From assembly GCF_001295845.1 (NCBI RefSeq), contig NZ_LJIC01000042.1:1-36320 (forward strand): a DNA stretch of 36,320 nucleotides. The letters are read 5' to 3'. The notes below the pieces were generated by a model, which was given only the letters and a program-made list of their open reading frames with translations, searched no databases and had not been told where the DNA came from. Shown here in pieces: positions 28,120-34,517 of the stretch. Every line of letters starts with the position of its first letter. Position 1 is the first letter of the stretch. Source of the DNA: Rhodopseudomonas sp. AAP120 (GTDB lineage Bacteria > Pseudomonadota > Alphaproteobacteria > Rhizobiales > Xanthobacteraceae). Both the position numbers and the translations under genes were made by a program.

Positions 28120-28806
28120 CTATGGGTCCGACAGCCAGCCCATGCTGAGCGCGAAGCGCACCACTTCGACGCGGTTGTGGAAGCCCAGCTTGGCCATGCC
28201 GCGGGCCTTGTAGGTCTCGACGCTCTTGGCGCCGATCTGCAGCTTGGCCGCGATGGTCTTGTTGCTGTGGCCGACGGCGGCGAGGCGCAGCACCTCGATC
28301 TCCCGGGTGGAGAGGTCGGAGACCGCGCTGTGCTCGTCGCCGTTCTGGATGTGCGGCGCGGTGCGGCCGATGGCGCGCCCGGCGATCGCCGGATCGAGAT
28401 AGATGCCGCCGGTGCCGACCGCGTGAATGCCGCGGATCAATTCGTCGGTGGCCGAGCGCTTCAGCACGTAGCCGGAGACGCCGAGATCGAGCAACTGCCG
28501 CAAGTAAGCGCCGTCTTCGTGCACGGTCAGCACCAGCACGCGGCATTCCGGGCAGGCGGCGAGAAATTTCCGCGCCACCTCGATGCCGTTGAGGCCGGGC
28601 ATCGACAGATCGAGCACGGCGACGTCGGGTCTCAGTTCGATCGCGCGGCGCAGCGCGTTCGGGCCGTCGCTGGCTTCGCCGACGATCTCGATCGCCGGGT
28701 CGCCGGCGACGAGCGCCTTCATGCCGCTGAGCACGACCGGATGATCGTCGGCGAGGAAGACGCGCAGTCTGGAAGGGGCTTGCTGGTCCATCGGAGCTGC
28801 TTCCAT
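28120..28806 (-). CDS. NarL/FixJ-type response regulator of the bacteriophytochrome
   Basis: 228 residues (or 223 from the ATG at 28791, which has GGAAG eight bases before it). The receiver domain has Asp20-Asp21, phosphoacceptor Asp66 in VLDLSMPG, Thr94 and Lys116 in YVLKRSA. A LuxR-type helix-turn-helix occupies the last 60 residues (LSTREIEVLRLAAVGHSNKT, then SVETYKARGMAKLG). The first possible ATG lies two bases after the phytochrome stop, so the pair is one transcript. The type matches the NarX-like kinase half of that phytochrome, and the obvious target is the divergent pucBA promoter. This is the order I recall for the R. palustris BphP4 locus. Confidence 0.94.
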   Translation of the reverse strand: MEAAPMDQQAPSRLRVFLADDHPVVLSGMKALVAGDPAIEIVGEASDGPNALRRAIELRPDVAVLDLSMPGLNGIEVARKFLAACPECRVLVLTVHEDGAYLRQLLDLGVSGYVLKRSATDELIRGIHAVGTGGIYLDPAIAGRAIGRTAPHIQNGDEHSAVSDLSTREIEVLRLAAVGHSNKTIAAKLQIGAKSVETYKARGMAKLGFHNRVEVVRFALSMGWLSDP

Positions 28807-28808
28807 GG

Positions 28809-31136
28809 TTACAACGGAATTCGTGCGAACAGAGCGGTGCCCTTGCCGGGCGCGGATTCGATTTCGAGCGAGCCGCCGACCAGCGTCAGCCGCTCGCGGA
28901 TGCCGAGCAGGCCGAGTCGCTGGGGCGGGCGGTCGGCGTCGGGATTGACGAAGCCGCGACCGTCGTCTTCGACCACCATCGTCACCTGCTGATCGGTCAG
29001 GCGCAGGATGACGCTGACATGCGTCGCGGCCGCGTGGCGGACGATGTTGGTGAGCGCTTCCTGCAGCACGCGATACAGCGTGGTCTCGATCGCCGGCGGC
29101 AGCCGGCGGTCGCCGAGCGTCATGTGCAGGTCGAACTGCACCTGCGCTTTCTCGCTCCAGGCGTCGAGCAGATGCTGGATCGCGGTCTGGATGCCGAGAT
29201 CGTCGAGCGCGGTCGGGCGGATTTCCCAGGCGAGCCGGTTGACCTGGCGGCCGATATCGGCGGTCAGCGTCTTCATTCCGGCGACGCGGTCCTGCAGTTG
29301 CGCGTTGTCGGGCGCGGCCTGTCCCAAATTCTCGAAGCCGAGTTGCAGCAGCGTCAGCGACTGGCCGAGCGTGTCGTGCAGTTCGCGCGCGATCCGCAGC
29401 CGTTCGGCTTCCTGATCCTCGACGGTTCGCCGCAGCACCTGCGACAGATCGGCTTCCACCGACACTCGCCGTCTGGTTTCTTCTTGCAGCGTCTGGGCGA
29501 CGTCCTGCGAGCGGCGCAAGCCGAACTCGACCTGCCGCATCAGCTGCTCCTGCAGCAGCCGCGCCGATCTACGCTCGCGGGCGATGCCGTCGATCCGGCG
29601 CAGCACGACTTCGAGCAACGACAGCCGCAGCCGGTGCGCCGCCTCGATCTCCGATCCGAGCCACGGCTCGGCATGCAGGCGCACCGATTCCTGCCACGCC
29701 GCGAAGCTGCGCCGCGGTGTCAGCAGTTCGCCGCTCGGGCCGACGCCCACCGGCTTGTGCGGATTGCCGGCCCAGGTGACGGTGCGGATCACCTCCGGCC
29801 GGAACCACAGTACGTAGTCGCGCGGCGTTTTCGACAGCGACAGCGCGAGCAGGCCGCTGGCGCGATCGGCGTAAGCTGTCGCCGGCTCGTAGATCAGCGG
29901 CAGGCTATCGGTGTGGAAGATGCCGTCGCTCGAATTGGCGCCGAGCCAGGCTATCAGCGCTTCGGTTTCGGCCGCATCCGGCGTGACGCCGAGGCCGGTG
30001 AACTGGCCATCGATCCACAGGCCGACGCCAGTCGCGGGAATGAAGTCGAGCAGGTTCGGATGAAACCGGATCAGCCCTTCAGCGAGGTCGGATTCCTGGC
30101 TCATCCGCGTCACCAGCTCTTCGTGGATGCGCGTGCTGCGCAGCCGCGCCTCGAGCTGTTCGGCGGCGATCTTGGCTTCGAGCTGCGACGACGCCATCTC
30201 GGCGAACATCTCGCACGACTCGCGCATGCGGTACGGCAGGTAGCGCGGCGAGCCGTGATGGCAGGCGATCAGTCCCCACAGCCTGCCGTGCTGAATCAGC
30301 GACAGCGACATCGACGCCACGACGCCCATATGGGCGAGATACAGCCGGTGCACCGGGGAGATGCTGCGGATCACGCTCTGGCTGAGGTCGAGCGGCTGCC
30401 CCGTCCGCGGATCGACCGTGGGGACGATCGGCGCCGGCGCGTAGCGGGCGTCGGGAATCGCGCGGATCCAGTTGCTGAGATACAGCGCGCGGGCCTGCTT
30501 GGGGATATCGGACTCCGGATAGCGCAGGCCGAGAAAGCTCTCGACGCCGGCGGCGCGGGATTCGGCGATCACTTCGCCGCTGCCGTCGGTGCCGAAGCGA
30601 TACACCATCACCCGTTCGAAGCCGGTGACGGCGCGCACTTCGTCGACCACCGCCTGACAGAACGCCTGCGTGCCGTCCGCACGCTGCACGTGGCGGATCA
30701 TCGACTGCACCAGCGCCAGGGAGTTATCGGGCGCAGCTTCCCGTCGTGGGTCGAACTCCAGCACCAGCAGGCCGGACGCCTGATGCACGACGACGTCCAC
30801 CATCGCCGCGTCGGGCGGGTTGAGTGTGAACGCATGCAGCGGCCGTTCGAGTTTGCGATCCGGGCCGAGCAGCGCGCGGATCTTGCCGATCTGATCGGCC
30901 GACAGCAGCGTCGCCACGGAGGTGCCGGGCAGGCGCTCGGCCGGGACGCCGAATAGTGGCGTCGTGTCACCGGCGGCGTGGATCACCTGCAGATCTTCGG
31001 GCGCCAGCGCCAGCAATGCGCCGTGAGGCTGGATCGAGCCGGGAAGATGAATCGCCTCACGCTCACATCCGGCCTGGCCGGGCGCGTCGAAATTTGCGAC
31101 TATCATTTCGGCGACGTTGTCAATGCCGGACTGCAT
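28809..31136 (-). CDS. bphP: Bacteriophytochrome histidine kinase (PAS-GAF-PHY-HisKA_3)
   Basis: About 775 residues; ATG at 31136 is preceded by an in-frame GTG at 31139 (numbers here count from the GTG). Cys25, just before HLPGSIQPHG, is the position of the biliverdin-linking cysteine. PAS about 20-130, GAF about 140-330 with RYPESDIPKQAR (Asp211, the conserved PASDIP aspartate), His264 in SPVHRLYL and His294, PHY about 340-510 with the tongue motif TPRRSF. The output is a NarX-type kinase, not the usual HisKA: His588 in IARELHDTLGQ, N-box EALTNIVRHA, G-boxes EDDGRGF and GLLGIRER. All photosensory residues I can check are intact, so it should be a red/far-red sensor. It is divergent from pucBA and co-transcribed with its regulator. 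Confidence 0.95.
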   Translation of the reverse strand: MQSGIDNVAEMIVANFDAPGQAGCEREAIHLPGSIQPHGALLALAPEDLQVIHAAGDTTPLFGVPAERLPGTSVATLLSADQIGKIRALLGPDRKLERPLHAFTLNPPDAAMVDVVVHQASGLLVLEFDPRREAAPDNSLALVQSMIRHVQRADGTQAFCQAVVDEVRAVTGFERVMVYRFGTDGSGEVIAESRAAGVESFLGLRYPESDIPKQARALYLSNWIRAIPDARYAPAPIVPTVDPRTGQPLDLSQSVIRSISPVHRLYLAHMGVVASMSLSLIQHGRLWGLIACHHGSPRYLPYRMRESCEMFAEMASSQLEAKIAAEQLEARLRSTRIHEELVTRMSQESDLAEGLIRFHPNLLDFIPATGVGLWIDGQFTGLGVTPDAAETEALIAWLGANSSDGIFHTDSLPLIYEPATAYADRASGLLALSLSKTPRDYVLWFRPEVIRTVTWAGNPHKPVGVGPSGELLTPRRSFAAWQESVRLHAEPWLGSEIEAAHRLRLSLLEVVLRRIDGIARERRSARLLQEQLMRQVEFGLRRSQDVAQTLQEETRRRVSVEADLSQVLRRTVEDQEAERLRIARELHDTLGQSLTLLQLGFENLGQAAPDNAQLQDRVAGMKTLTADIGRQVNRLAWEIRPTALDDLGIQTAIQHLLDAWSEKAQVQFDLHMTLGDRRLPPAIETTLYRVLQEALTNIVRHAAATHVSVILRLTDQQVTMVVEDDGRGFVNPDADRPPQRLGLLGIRERLTLVGGSLEIESAPGKGTALFARIPL

Positions 31137-31215
31137 CACATTTTACTCAATTTTCCGTGTCCGGGAGTCGTCGGACCGGTTTGAGGATGTCCGGTATGAC
31201 ACGGACACCCCTCAG

Positions 31216-31496: not shown

Positions 31497-31652
31497 ATGG
31501 CAGACGATCCCAACAAGGTCTGGCCGACTGGCCTGACGATCGCGGAATCGGAAGAGCTCCACAAGCACGTCATCGACGGTACGCGCATTTTCGGCGCGAT
31601 CGCGATCGTCGCGCACTTCCTGGCGTATGTTTACTCGCCCTGGCTGCACTAA
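31497..31652 (+). CDS. pucB: LH2 light-harvesting beta polypeptide
   Basis: 51 residues: [20 protein letters not shown] begins the polar N-terminus, and one membrane helix follows ([19 protein letters not shown]). His40 (counting Met) is the B850 bacteriochlorophyll ligand and His22 lies at the B800 side. It is nearly the same as R. palustris PucB proteins as I remember them. AGGAGG lies eight bases before the ATG. It forms the alpha-beta unit of the peripheral antenna with the next gene, 12 bases away. Confidence 0.97.
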
Positions 31653-31664
31653 GGAGTATCTAAG

Positions 31665-31844
31665 ATGAATCAAGGTCGCATTTGGACTGTCGTGAAGCCG
31701 ACCGTCGGCCTGCCGCTCCTGCTCGGCAGCGTCACCGTGATCGCCATCCTCGTTCACTACGCCGTGCTGTCGCACACCACCTGGTTCCCGAAGTACTGGA
31801 ACGGTAAGACTGCGGCGATCGAGAGCTCGGTCACCATCGGCTAA
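31665..31844 (+). CDS. pucA: LH2 light-harvesting alpha polypeptide
   Basis: 59 residues, start [20 protein letters not shown], one membrane helix and B850 ligand His31. Tyr44 and Trp45 (WFPKYWNG) are both kept; these bond the acetyl groups of B850 pigments and predict a normal 850-nm type antenna, not the 820-nm or low-light variant in which they are replaced. The tail [10 protein letters not shown] is short and differs from the Ala/Pro-rich tails of PucAa/b. AAGGAG sits eight bases before the ATG, overlapping the pucB stop. Confidence 0.97.
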
Positions 31845-32048: not shown

Positions 32049-33476
32049 ATGAACACAGTCAGCCAAAAGATGATGAAGGTCTGGGCCTCGCTGGGGCCTC
32101 GCTTTCTGCCATTCGCGGATGCGGCGACGCCGGATCTGCCTCTATCCCGGTTGTTGCGCCTGTCGCTGTTTCAAGTCGCGGTCGGCATGTCGCTGGTACT
32201 GCTGGTCGGCACCTTGAACCGGGTGATGATCGTCGAACTCAACGTGCCGGCCTCGATCGTCGGCGTGATGGTTTCGCTGCCGCTGATCTTCGCGCCGTTC
32301 AGGGCGCTGATCGGCTTCAAATCCGATGTCCATAAATCCGTGCTGGGCTGGCGCCGCGTGCCGTTCCTCTACAAGGGGACGCTGGTGCAGTTCGGCGGTC
32401 TGGCGATTCTGCCGTTCGCGCTGCTGGTGTTGTCCGGCGGCGGCGAGGCCGGTCATGCGCCGGTGTGGATCGGTCAGTTCGGCGCCGCGCTGGCGTTCCT
32501 GCTGATCGGCGCCGGCGTGCATACCACCCAGACGGTCGGGCTCGCGCTCGCCACCGATCTCGCCGCCCCCGAGACGCGGCCGAAGGTGGTCGGCCTGATG
32601 TACACCATGCTGATGTTCGGCATGATCGCGAGCGCGATTATCTTCGGCATGCTGCTGGCTGATTTCTCGCCCGGCCGCCTCATCCAGGTCATTCAGGGCT
32701 CGGCCGTCGTCACCATTGTGCTGAATGCCGTCGCTTCCTGGAAGATGGAAGCGCGCCGCCGCACCGGCGGTGAGGTCGCCACCGCGCATCCCGGTGCGCC
32801 GGCCGGTGGCTTCCGCCAGTCGTGGGACGCGTTCATCTCCGGCGACAACGCGATGCGCCGGCTGATCGCGGTCGGCTTCGGCACCATGGCGTTCAGTATG
32901 GAAGACGTGCTGCTCGAGCCCTATGGCGGCCAGATCCTGCATCTGTCGGTCGGCGACACCACCAAGCTCACGGCGGCGCTGGCGGTCGGCGGCCTGTTCG
33001 GCTTCGGCCTTGCCTCGCGCGTGCTCAGCCGCGGTGCCGATCCGTTCCGGATGGCGAGCGCAGGCGCGCTGGTCGGCATCCCGGCGTTCCTGCTGGTGAT
33101 CTTCGCGGCCGAGCTGCAAGGCGCAGCCTCCGCGCTGGTGTTCGGCTTCGGTACGCTGCTGATCGGTTTCGGCGCTGGGCTATTCGGCCACGGTACGCTG
33201 ACGGCGACCATGAACGCCGCGCCGAAGGATCAGGCCGGGCTGGCGCTCGGCGCCTGGGGCGCGGTGCAGGCCTCCGCGGCCGGCGTGGCGATCGCGCTTG
33301 GCGGCATCCTGCGCGACGCGGTGACGGCGCTGGCGCCGCATCTCGGACCGGCGGCCGGTTACAATTTCGTCTACTGCCTCGAACTGCTGCTGCTGTTCGC
33401 AACGCTGGTGACGATGGTCCCGCTGATCAGGCGACGGGACACCCTTCTGATGCAGGGCCAACCCTCGCGGCCCTGA
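32049..33476 (+). CDS. pucC: PucC-like light-harvesting assembly protein
   Basis: 475 residues, about twelve helices, of the BCH/PucC branch of the MFS. PucC/LhaA proteins assist assembly of LH2 or LH1 and probably hand over bacteriochlorophyll. Seen: LSLFQVAVGMSLVLLVGTLN with the Asn-Arg-Val-Met that follows it, FAPFRALIGFKSDVH, LGWRRVPFLYKGTL, and DLAAPETRPKVVGLMY, all PucC signatures. ATG 32049 has only GGA upstream; the ATG pair at 32070-32073 is an alternative. The next gene starts 18 bases after its stop. Confidence 0.93.
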   Translation: MNTVSQKMMKVWASLGPRFLPFADAATPDLPLSRLLRLSLFQVAVGMSLVLLVGTLNRVMIVELNVPASIVGVMVSLPLIFAPFRALIGFKSDVHKSVLGWRRVPFLYKGTLVQFGGLAILPFALLVLSGGGEAGHAPVWIGQFGAALAFLLIGAGVHTTQTVGLALATDLAAPETRPKVVGLMYTMLMFGMIASAIIFGMLLADFSPGRLIQVIQGSAVVTIVLNAVASWKMEARRRTGGEVATAHPGAPAGGFRQSWDAFISGDNAMRRLIAVGFGTMAFSMEDVLLEPYGGQILHLSVGDTTKLTAALAVGGLFGFGLASRVLSRGADPFRMASAGALVGIPAFLLVIFAAELQGAASALVFGFGTLLIGFGAGLFGHGTLTATMNAAPKDQAGLALGAWGAVQASAAGVAIALGGILRDAVTALAPHLGPAAGYNFVYCLELLLLFATLVTMVPLIRRRDTLLMQGQPSRP

Positions 33477-33494: not shown

Positions 33495-34157
33495 ATGACG
33501 CAAATCATCACCCGGTTGTACGATTCCAGCAGCAAGCTCGCTGCGCTGGAAACCGACCTGAAGAAGAGCAATTATCAGTATTCCGTCGTCACCGCCTATC
33601 AGGCGGGCAAGGCGAGCTCCACCGACGATATCATCGCCGCGCTCGGCAGGGCCTATGTGTCGAGCGGTGAGGCGCGGACCTATGCCGACTACGTCAAGAA
33701 GGGCGCGGTCGTGGTCGCCGTGAAGGCCGAATTCGGCTTCGCCGCCAAGGCGGCGGAGATCCTCGACGGCTATCAGCCGAACAAGATCAGCCTGCAGAAG
33801 TCGTCGTCGGCGAGCGCTGAACAGAGCGAAGCGACGCCGTTCTCGAACCTGCTGCACCTCAAGACGCTGCTCGACACGTCGGGGAAGTACAAATCCTATT
33901 CCGGCGACTGGCTGCTCGTCGACAGCGACAAGACCTTTTCGGGTACGCCGCTCGTCATCAGCAGCAAGGGCCCATACCAGTCGTTCTCCGGAACGCCGCT
34001 GCTGCTCGCCAGCAACGGTCCCTACAAGTCCTTTTCCGGGACTCCCCTGTTGCTGGACAGCAGCGGTCCGTACAAATCCTATTCGGGCGAACCGCTGCTG
34101 ATCAACAACCCGACCATCTTCTCCTCCTGGCTGGGCCTGCCAGTGCTCTCTAAGTAA
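33495..34157 (+). CDS. Stress-protein-like domain joined to six 16-residue FSGTPLLL repeats
   Basis: 220 residues, no signal or membrane helix. Residues 1-95 (IITRLYDSSSKLAALETDLK, then YADYVKKGAVVVAVKAEFG and AAEILDGYQP) have the outline of YflT/general-stress-protein-17M-type alpha/beta domains, which I infer from pattern only. A Ser-rich linker of about 35 residues follows. From Gly130 there are five repeats of the form GPYKSFSGTPLLLDSS (the second lacks three residues), and a last degenerate unit TIFSSWLGLPVLSK. CGGAG before ATG 33495 and 18 bases of spacing to pucC show it belongs to the puc operon. I know of no named family for the repeat. A cytosolic factor in antenna assembly or membrane organisation is speculation. 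Confidence 0.85.
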   Translation: MTQIITRLYDSSSKLAALETDLKKSNYQYSVVTAYQAGKASSTDDIIAALGRAYVSSGEARTYADYVKKGAVVVAVKAEFGFAAKAAEILDGYQPNKISLQKSSSASAEQSEATPFSNLLHLKTLLDTSGKYKSYSGDWLLVDSDKTFSGTPLVISSKGPYQSFSGTPLLLASNGPYKSFSGTPLLLDSSGPYKSYSGEPLLINNPTIFSSWLGLPVLSK

Positions 34158-34168
34158 AGGAATTGATC

Positions 34169-34456
34169 ATGAGCGAATACAAAGGACACTCCGGTACTCC
34201 GCTGATTCTCGAGCAGAAGGGCGAGTACGAAGGCTATTCGGGCACCCCGCTGCTGCTGAAGCAGGAGGGGGAATACAAGAGCTTCTCCGGCACGCCGCTG
34301 CTGCTCGAGCAGAAGGGCGAGTACCAGAGCTTCTCGGGTACGCCGCTGCTGCTGAAGCAGGAGGGCGAGTACCAGTCGTTCTCCGGCACGCCGCTGATCC
34401 TGAAGCAGGAAGGCGAGTACAAGTCGTTCTCGGGCTATCCGCTGCTGCTCAACTTC
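34169..34456 (+). repeat. Six tandem 48-base coding repeats
   Basis: Six 48-base units without spacers, coding for the six 16-residue repeats. Units differ at many third positions and serine codons (agc and tcg), while the residues stay nearly constant, which points to selection on the protein rather than recent DNA duplication. Confidence 0.9.
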
Positions 34457-34459
34457 TGA
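34169..34459 (+). CDS. Protein of exactly six 16-residue repeats
   Basis: 96 residues from ATG 34169 (AAGGA seven bases before; a TTG two codons upstream is less likely). The whole protein is six units: MSEYKGHSGTPLILEQ, KGEYEGYSGTPLLLKQ, EGEYKSFSGTPLLLEQ, KGEYQSFSGTPLLLKQ, EGEYQSFSGTPLILKQ, EGEYKSFSGYPLLLNF. Each offers two short strand-like stretches (EYKSFS and PLLLKQ) joined by GT and by charged turns. No helix, signal or membrane segment is seen. The repeats of the preceding gene are the same, with Asn/Ser/Asp in the turns in place of Glu/Lys. It starts 11 bases after that gene and ends before a strong terminator. Function unknown. Confidence 0.88.
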   Translation: MSEYKGHSGTPLILEQKGEYEGYSGTPLLLKQEGEYKSFSGTPLLLEQKGEYQSFSGTPLLLKQEGEYQSFSGTPLILKQEGEYKSFSGYPLLLNF

Positions 34460-34487
34460 GCCGGTTCGCGGTCGCAAGGCCTCGATG

Positions 34488-34517
34488 CGCCGCGGGCAGC
34501 GATGCCCGCGGCGTTTT
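34488..34517 (+). terminator. Rho-independent terminator of the puc operon
   Basis: A perfect 11-base stem (CGCCGCGGGCA/TGCCCGCGGCG) with GCGA loop, followed by TTTT, 28 bases after the last repeat-gene stop. It defines pucB-A-C and the two repeat genes as one unit, separate from the monooxygenase. Confidence 0.92.

Follow-up and report, generated by a model that had tools for sequence, protein, structure and literature searches.

A pucC-linked protein of Rhodopseudomonas with a folded head and a tail related to the LH2 gamma polypeptide

Why should a photosynthesis gene cluster end in two genes for short, repetitive proteins? The question is raised by a stretch of 36,320 nucleotides from Rhodopseudomonas sp. 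AAP120 (contig NZ_LJIC01000042.1; the whole stretch is called the window), in which the puc genes of light-harvesting complex 2 (LH2) run in the order pucB-pucA-pucC and are followed by two short genes, here gene 1 and gene 2, and then by a terminator-like hairpin. Gene 2 encodes the LH2 gamma polypeptide, an antenna subunit that is already known. Gene 1 encodes a relative of gamma with a folded head in front of its repeats. On balance we think it probable that gene 1 is an accessory protein that grips the LH2 ring, and that it represents the parental type from which gamma derives. The features at issue are:

33495..34157, forward strand: gene 1, an unnamed pucC-linked protein of 220 residues, with an N-terminal alpha/beta domain and a repeat tail
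33495..33794, forward strand: N-terminal domain (head) of gene 1, residues 1-100, modelled as strand-helix-strand-helix-helix-strand-helix
33837..34154, forward strand: tail of gene 1, residues 115-220, with seven slots, five of which contain serine-glycine (SG)
34169..34459, forward strand: gene 2, LH2 gamma polypeptide, 96 residues from ATG, with six 16-residue units
34487..34514, forward strand: terminator-like hairpin of 12 pairs with a T run

The genes are closely packed, with 18 bases between pucC and gene 1, and 11 between gene 1 and gene 2. Each contains a 48-base tandem array (33928-34084, 3.3 copies, in gene 1; 34189-34449, 5.4 copies, in gene 2), and the SG unit is common to both. 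An earlier, sequence-only reading of this DNA had proposed two adjacent genes between pucC and the terminator that share a 16-residue repeat, with six units in each. The arrangement and the shared repeat were confirmed, and the count was right for gene 2 but not for gene 1. In gene 2 there are exactly six units, the serine of SG falling at residues 8, 24, 40, 56, 72 and 88, a spacing of 16 residues throughout. Gene 1 has five SG units (serine at 136, 149, 165, 181 and 197) among seven slots, in which glycine or its equivalent is found at 121, 137, 150, 166, 182, 198 and 214. Its first and last slots have another form, without the SG serine (PFSNLLHLKTLL and IFSSWLGLPVLS), and one step between slots is 13 residues, while all the others are 16. 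Both genes are under purifying selection: the ratio of nonsynonymous to synonymous substitution rates was 0.23-0.35 for gene 1 (6 pairs), 0.16-0.35 for gamma (4 pairs) and 0.13-0.14 for pucC (2 pairs).

Residues 2-95 of gene 2 matched chain S of PDB entry 7zcu (E 1.5e-49). By homology, gene 2 is the orthologue of the LH2 gamma polypeptide RPA1495 (Q6N9P5; PDB 7zcu, 7zdi, 7ze3 and 7ze8), with the same six units, serine before glycine, 16-residue pitch and no further domain. The available portion of the structural paper (PMC9618040) describes gamma from Rps. palustris as an extended ribbon, close to the cytoplasmic face of LH2, that encloses six of the nine alpha/beta pairs, and in which a serine in each of the six units ligates one bacteriochlorophyll, with a mean spacing of 27.6 A between the bound pigments. 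That portion presents the ribbon as a new mode of holding bacteriochlorophyll, describes an LH2 gel with a single band near 10 kDa in addition to alpha and beta, reports gamma only from Rhodopseudomonas, and leaves the reason for the partial ring cover open. Q6N9P5 was also found in low-light LH2 by mass spectrometry, according to the accessible text of PMC9897067. Pigment binding and LH2 membership are thus established for Rps. palustris gamma and, by homology, presumably apply to gene 2 of AAP120. Weak matches of gene 2 to ZNF142 zinc finger, DUF3823, SelR and NF040919 were below curated cut-offs and were set aside as matches of repeat or composition.

Gene 1, in contrast, has no Pfam or NCBIfam family, and nor do 27 relatives, stray weak matches aside. 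The suggestion that the repeat belongs to no named family therefore failed for gene 2 and held for gene 1. The known family that was found, gamma, is itself an antenna subunit, and no match to a repeat family of unrelated function was seen. The literature searched contained no description of gene 1, and none of RPA1494, its orthologue by position only. By sequence, the only PDB relative that could be accepted for gene 1 was gamma, with which it shares the unit but from which it differs in its head of about 100 residues, for which the model is confident, and in having five rather than six serine units, two of its seven slots lacking the serine. Its relatives also extend outside the genus to which gamma is confined in the available text of PMC9618040. 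In the model of gene 1, the predicted local distance difference test (pLDDT) score of blocks of the head was 79-92, except for 67 around residues 31-40. Fold searches with this model returned common arrangements only, including V-ATPase a-subunit, PII-like, CutA-like and nucleoside diphosphate kinase folds; gamma was the second row of the Foldseek search (7zdi chain S, E 0.084).

Several other matches in the gene 1 family were rejected. That of gene 1 to EcoO109I, and those of its relatives to Nucleoporin_FG, LIP1, DUF7336, ActD and DUF7373, were below cut-offs and reflect repeats or composition, as does, in our view, a match of one of 28 family members to NF009675 (E 2.4e-5). The enzyme in PDB entry 2gs8 matched the 28-member profile with E 1.7e-4; with the non-Rhodopseudomonas profile it gave only E 0.035, its best single stretch having E 1.6, and the match was treated as chance.

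How widely is gene 1 distributed, and does it stay with the puc genes? When 41 genomes were searched with the gene 1 protein, 18 gave matches: 16 of the genus (its own included), one from another genus of the same family (G020) and one from another family (G025). In genome G006 the search matched only gamma-type repeats near contig ends. We then turned to loci containing PucC, using the best 80 of 584 candidates, in which taxonomic classes were assigned by record title (some are perhaps wrong) and some contigs end near pucC. Gene 1 relatives (E up to 1e-3) were present in 30 of these 80 loci, always within about 1.4 kb of pucC. The layouts were pucBA-pucC-X, pucBA-X-pucC, or X 5' of pucBA on either strand, where X is the gene 1 relative. 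Positive loci comprised 25 of 40 alphaproteobacterial and 4 of 6 gammaproteobacterial loci, none of 28 betaproteobacterial loci and none of 5 with unclear titles; one Myxococcota metagenome-assembled genome was also among the 30, with a weak score (4.8e-7, first profile). A tail unit was recognised in 29 of the 30, with none found by the matrix in L145.

Three broader samples, which overlap (e.g. L085, L133 and L138), separated the head from the tail. The order sample covered 397 genomes, 32 of which matched at E 1e-8, and we read 30 of its 37 matching places. Here pucC was found within the 3-4 kb read in all 20 tail-bearing loci, the window's own included, and all ten tail-less relatives of the head lacked puc genes. 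Two places outside the 30 are in the AAP120 genome and bear tails, one adjoining pucBA (C39) and one away from puc genes (C62); in the other five the match is confined to the head. Of the 398 genomes of the phylum sample, 14 matched. Among its 14 loci, six of which had been read before, puc genes were beside 10 of 11 tail-bearing loci and none of three tail-less ones; for L197, it took the wider stretch L020 to reveal pucC. The class sample comprised 385 genomes, 32 of them matching at E 1e-3; in it we read wider stretches at 17 places outside the window's own contigs, and at C62 of AAP120. The ten strongest outside AAP120 (L067-L076) all had a gene of the PUCC family, recognised in nine of them by the PucC profile and in L067 by Pfam, adjoining a UbiA-type gene, and the weaker loci (L077, L078 and L080-L084) had no tail by eye and no PucC. 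Because the tail-less relatives of the head are not beside puc genes and most tail-bearing ones are, linkage to puc genes follows the tail. As the sequence-only reading had supposed, the repeat proteins are linked to the antenna and are not incidental to it. A plasmid search with the Litoreibacter relative gave no match, and repeating the family profile search on the fetched open reading frames (ORFs) added no members.

The members were compared in an alignment of the window protein with those of 27 of the 30 positive loci, and in a second alignment of the 24 from outside Rhodopseudomonas. L116, L159 and L161 were omitted (ORF start placed too early, weak score, different repeat). A loose unit pattern, at least three per ORF, was reached by 43 of 13,728 ORFs, of which 40 were members and three were not (two PucC and one short ORF); as three shuffled ORFs also reached it, a stricter matrix was used. 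The common unit outside Rhodopseudomonas is PLSSLFGLPLLT, with intervals of 16 residues in 51 of 93 cases and 32 in 9 of 93. The gamma-type SFSGTPLLL agrees with it at S, G, P and L, but a serine takes the place of the F or L of the common unit. This serine is missing from the tails examined beyond Rhodopseudomonas and one related genus, although these often keep the 16-residue pitch. A tail profile links gamma to these wider tails (1.2e-5), and gene 1, which has both unit forms in one register, bridges the two by sequence. The homology of the head stands independently of the tail, as a profile of Rhodopseudomonas heads found 22 of 24 other members at E up to 1e-3 among the 13,728 ORFs.

What might such a protein do? 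As its tail is related to gamma and has the same pitch, and as the gene adjoins pucBA and pucC, we read it as lying along the same rim of LH2 as gamma. Since the six units of gamma sit on six pairs (PMC9618040, available portion), it would contribute one 16-residue unit per alpha/beta pair. The five serine slots of Rhodopseudomonas gene 1 could hold bacteriochlorophyll. The accessible literature on purified Rps. palustris LH2 names only alpha, beta and gamma, so gene 1 would act mostly in building the ring or loading pigment, together with its neighbour PucC, and would not be a permanent subunit. The most likely origin of gamma is a gene 1-type protein that lost its head and gained a serine in every unit. 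What the sequences establish is the identity of gene 2, the homology of head and tail, the linkage of the genes and the spacing of the units; LH2 binding, pigment binding, timing and cytoplasmic placement of gene 1, like the direction of descent, are inferred. We also think it possible, though rather doubtful, that LH2 rings outside Rhodopseudomonas, in many alphaproteobacteria and some gammaproteobacteria, are likewise wrapped by or built with a ribbon-tailed protein that is lost on purification and has for that reason been overlooked, gamma being a pigment-carrying Rhodopseudomonas offshoot.

A number of observations weigh against a ring-gripping accessory. First, the evidence for contact between gene 1 and LH2 is indirect. 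Second, none of the 28 betaproteobacterial loci has gene 1 in the stretch read, which was all that was searched, and 15 of 40 alphaproteobacterial loci are without it, so LH2 may be built without gene 1. Third, SG-type units among the 80 loci occur only in Rhodopseudomonas members, and pigment binding elsewhere cannot therefore depend on the SG serine. Fourth, the link between gamma and the wider tails is not uniformly strong: the non-Rhodopseudomonas unit matrix recognises just two units in gene 1 and none in gamma, the full non-Rhodopseudomonas profile reaches gamma in the PDB without significance (E 0.45), behind the unrelated enzyme 2gs8 (0.035), and the hhalign probability for gamma and the wider tails is 74%. 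Fifth, the pitch in two long-tailed members (L020 and L161), each with eight units and an end unit, is exactly 25 residues. Sixth, the head profile also matches tail-less YflT-like proteins distant from puc genes, so that the family cannot be recognised by its head alone. Seventh, four tail-bearing Rhodopseudomonas places have no puc genes beside them in the stretch read (L079, which is also L208 and is contig C62 of AAP120; L030; L031; L032), and the linkage to photosynthesis genes, complete among the tail-bearing loci read in the order sample, is to that extent qualified. Finally, the tail of gene 1 is mostly below pLDDT 50 and has no confident fold. However, gamma modelled alone has a mean pLDDT of only 38, although its bound structure is solved, so the low score of the tail says nothing against a ribbon.

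The coordinates of the proteins with the 25-residue pitch are L020:9066-10169 and L161:5337-6374. Those of the paralogues distant from puc genes are L079:2135-2659, L030:7996-8502, L031:9103-9609 and L032:8555-9214; their Pfam neighbours include a branched-chain amino acid transporter, a MatE protein and a tRNA-guanine transglycosylase.

Could gene 1 instead be a permanent subunit of LH2, loosely held or sub-stoichiometric, for example on the three pairs not covered by gamma or on rings that lack it? It is in the same cluster as gamma, and shares with it the unit and, for the most part, the 16-residue register, with five serines competent as ligands. Its seven slots, however, do not fit three free pairs, and the gel described in the available portion of PMC9618040 has a single additional band, near 10 kDa, although loss in detergent is possible; we consider this explanation unlikely. 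Less likely still is a linker or membrane organiser that joins LH2 rings to each other, or LH2 to PucC or to the reaction centre-light-harvesting 1 complex, which is the nearest to the stacking role proposed in the sequence-only reading. A folded head with a ring-binding tail would make a plausible tether, and the relatives lie near pucC in the 30 loci described above, but we found no sequence feature pointing to self-association or tethering. That gene 1 is a YflT-like stress protein, its tail not binding LH2 and its location reflecting co-regulation only, is very improbable: the head is distantly related to YflT-type proteins and the four puc-distant paralogues do bear tails, but the tail shares ancestry with an LH2 subunit of solved structure, and the tail-less head relatives of the order and phylum samples are never beside puc genes while most tail-bearing ones are.

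The relationship of the head to YflT is a distant homology. Pfam YflT (PF11181) did not match gene 1, and two of the 28 family members gave weak matches to it (E up to 0.01, best 2.5e-4). L021, which is matched by the gene 1 protein and profiles, passes the YflT cut-off (26.5 against 26.2 bits). Unlike gene 1, YflT-type stress proteins and their DUF2382 fusions lack a repeat tail, and their loci, as far as read, contain no puc genes.

Two further known systems come close. Rhodobacter capsulatus PucD and PucE are extra products encoded 3' of pucC that aid stable LH2; gene 1 is likened to them by description only. RPA3011, a hypothetical protein of the light-harvesting complex 4 (LH4) locus, is a gene 1 paralogue after pucBAd, identified by gene order only; it is up in low light, and the available parts of the literature assign it no function. 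In L034 the order is pucB pucA, a gene 1 paralogue, pucA pucB, a regulator and phytochromes. With gene 2 already explained, what is new here is the wide gene 1 family and a lengthened gamma. The family would give gamma an origin and a wider distribution, and it supplies genes that can be deleted in tractable strains. Gene 1, a conserved neighbour of pucC whose tail is likely to bind the ring, offers a direct clue to LH2 assembly beyond the role of PucC.

The lengthened gamma has 145 residues and was found in three of the 16 genomes of the genus (G002, G012 and G006) and in one genome of a related genus (G020). It has nine slots, made up of eight SG units at an exact 16-residue spacing and an end unit, in which glycine is kept in three of the four and replaced by another residue in G020. 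The four are:

L025:3077-3514, lengthened gamma, beside a shorter gamma or gamma fragment
L026:10073-10510, lengthened gamma, likewise
L027:225-662, lengthened gamma, likewise
L024:12165-12602, lengthened gamma, likewise

By sequence, nine slots would be enough to close round all nine alpha/beta pairs of an LH2 ring, which makes this gamma a natural test of what sets the length of the ribbon. As a general rule nine slots were rejected, since the number of recognised PLSS-type units in a protein varies from 0 to 10 across the 80 loci, and a match of unit number to ring size is only a suggestion. By the residue table in the accessible part of PMC5069747, pucA of the lengthened-gamma operon has the LH4 pattern in G002 and G012 (M26, F44, M45) and is of the LH2' type in G020 (Y44, M45), giving two LH4-type and one LH2'-type among the three such operons in which pucA could be read; the G006 contig starts inside gamma. 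Six units are kept in G014 and, by sequence, in G010, where most units are 13 residues. One of the two puc operons of G012 has a four-unit gamma of 68 residues from the listed start (L026:10566-10772).

The other features of the cluster in the window are:

28120..28806, reverse strand: LuxR-type response regulator (Response_reg and GerE)
28809..31139, reverse strand: bacteriophytochrome histidine kinase (PAS_2, GAF, PHY, HisKA_3 and HATPase_c)
31497..31652, forward strand: pucB, LH2 beta (Pfam LHC)
31665..31844, forward strand: pucA, LH2 alpha, with Y44 and W45, the LH2 type by the same table in the accessible part of PMC5069747
31874..31897, forward strand: hairpin of 10 pairs between pucA and pucC
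32049..33476, forward strand: pucC (PUCC, E 1e-149)

The hairpin between pucA and pucC is perhaps a processing or attenuation site. The phytochrome kinase and the LuxR-type regulator lie just 5' of the puc genes and are divergent from them. The kinase has a cysteine in CEREAIHLPGSIQPHG, which we take to be its chromophore site. Two phytochrome orthologues aligned to it only in part by tblastn, that at L024:16041-17219 by its ends and that at L036:3717-4979 by its C-terminal part.
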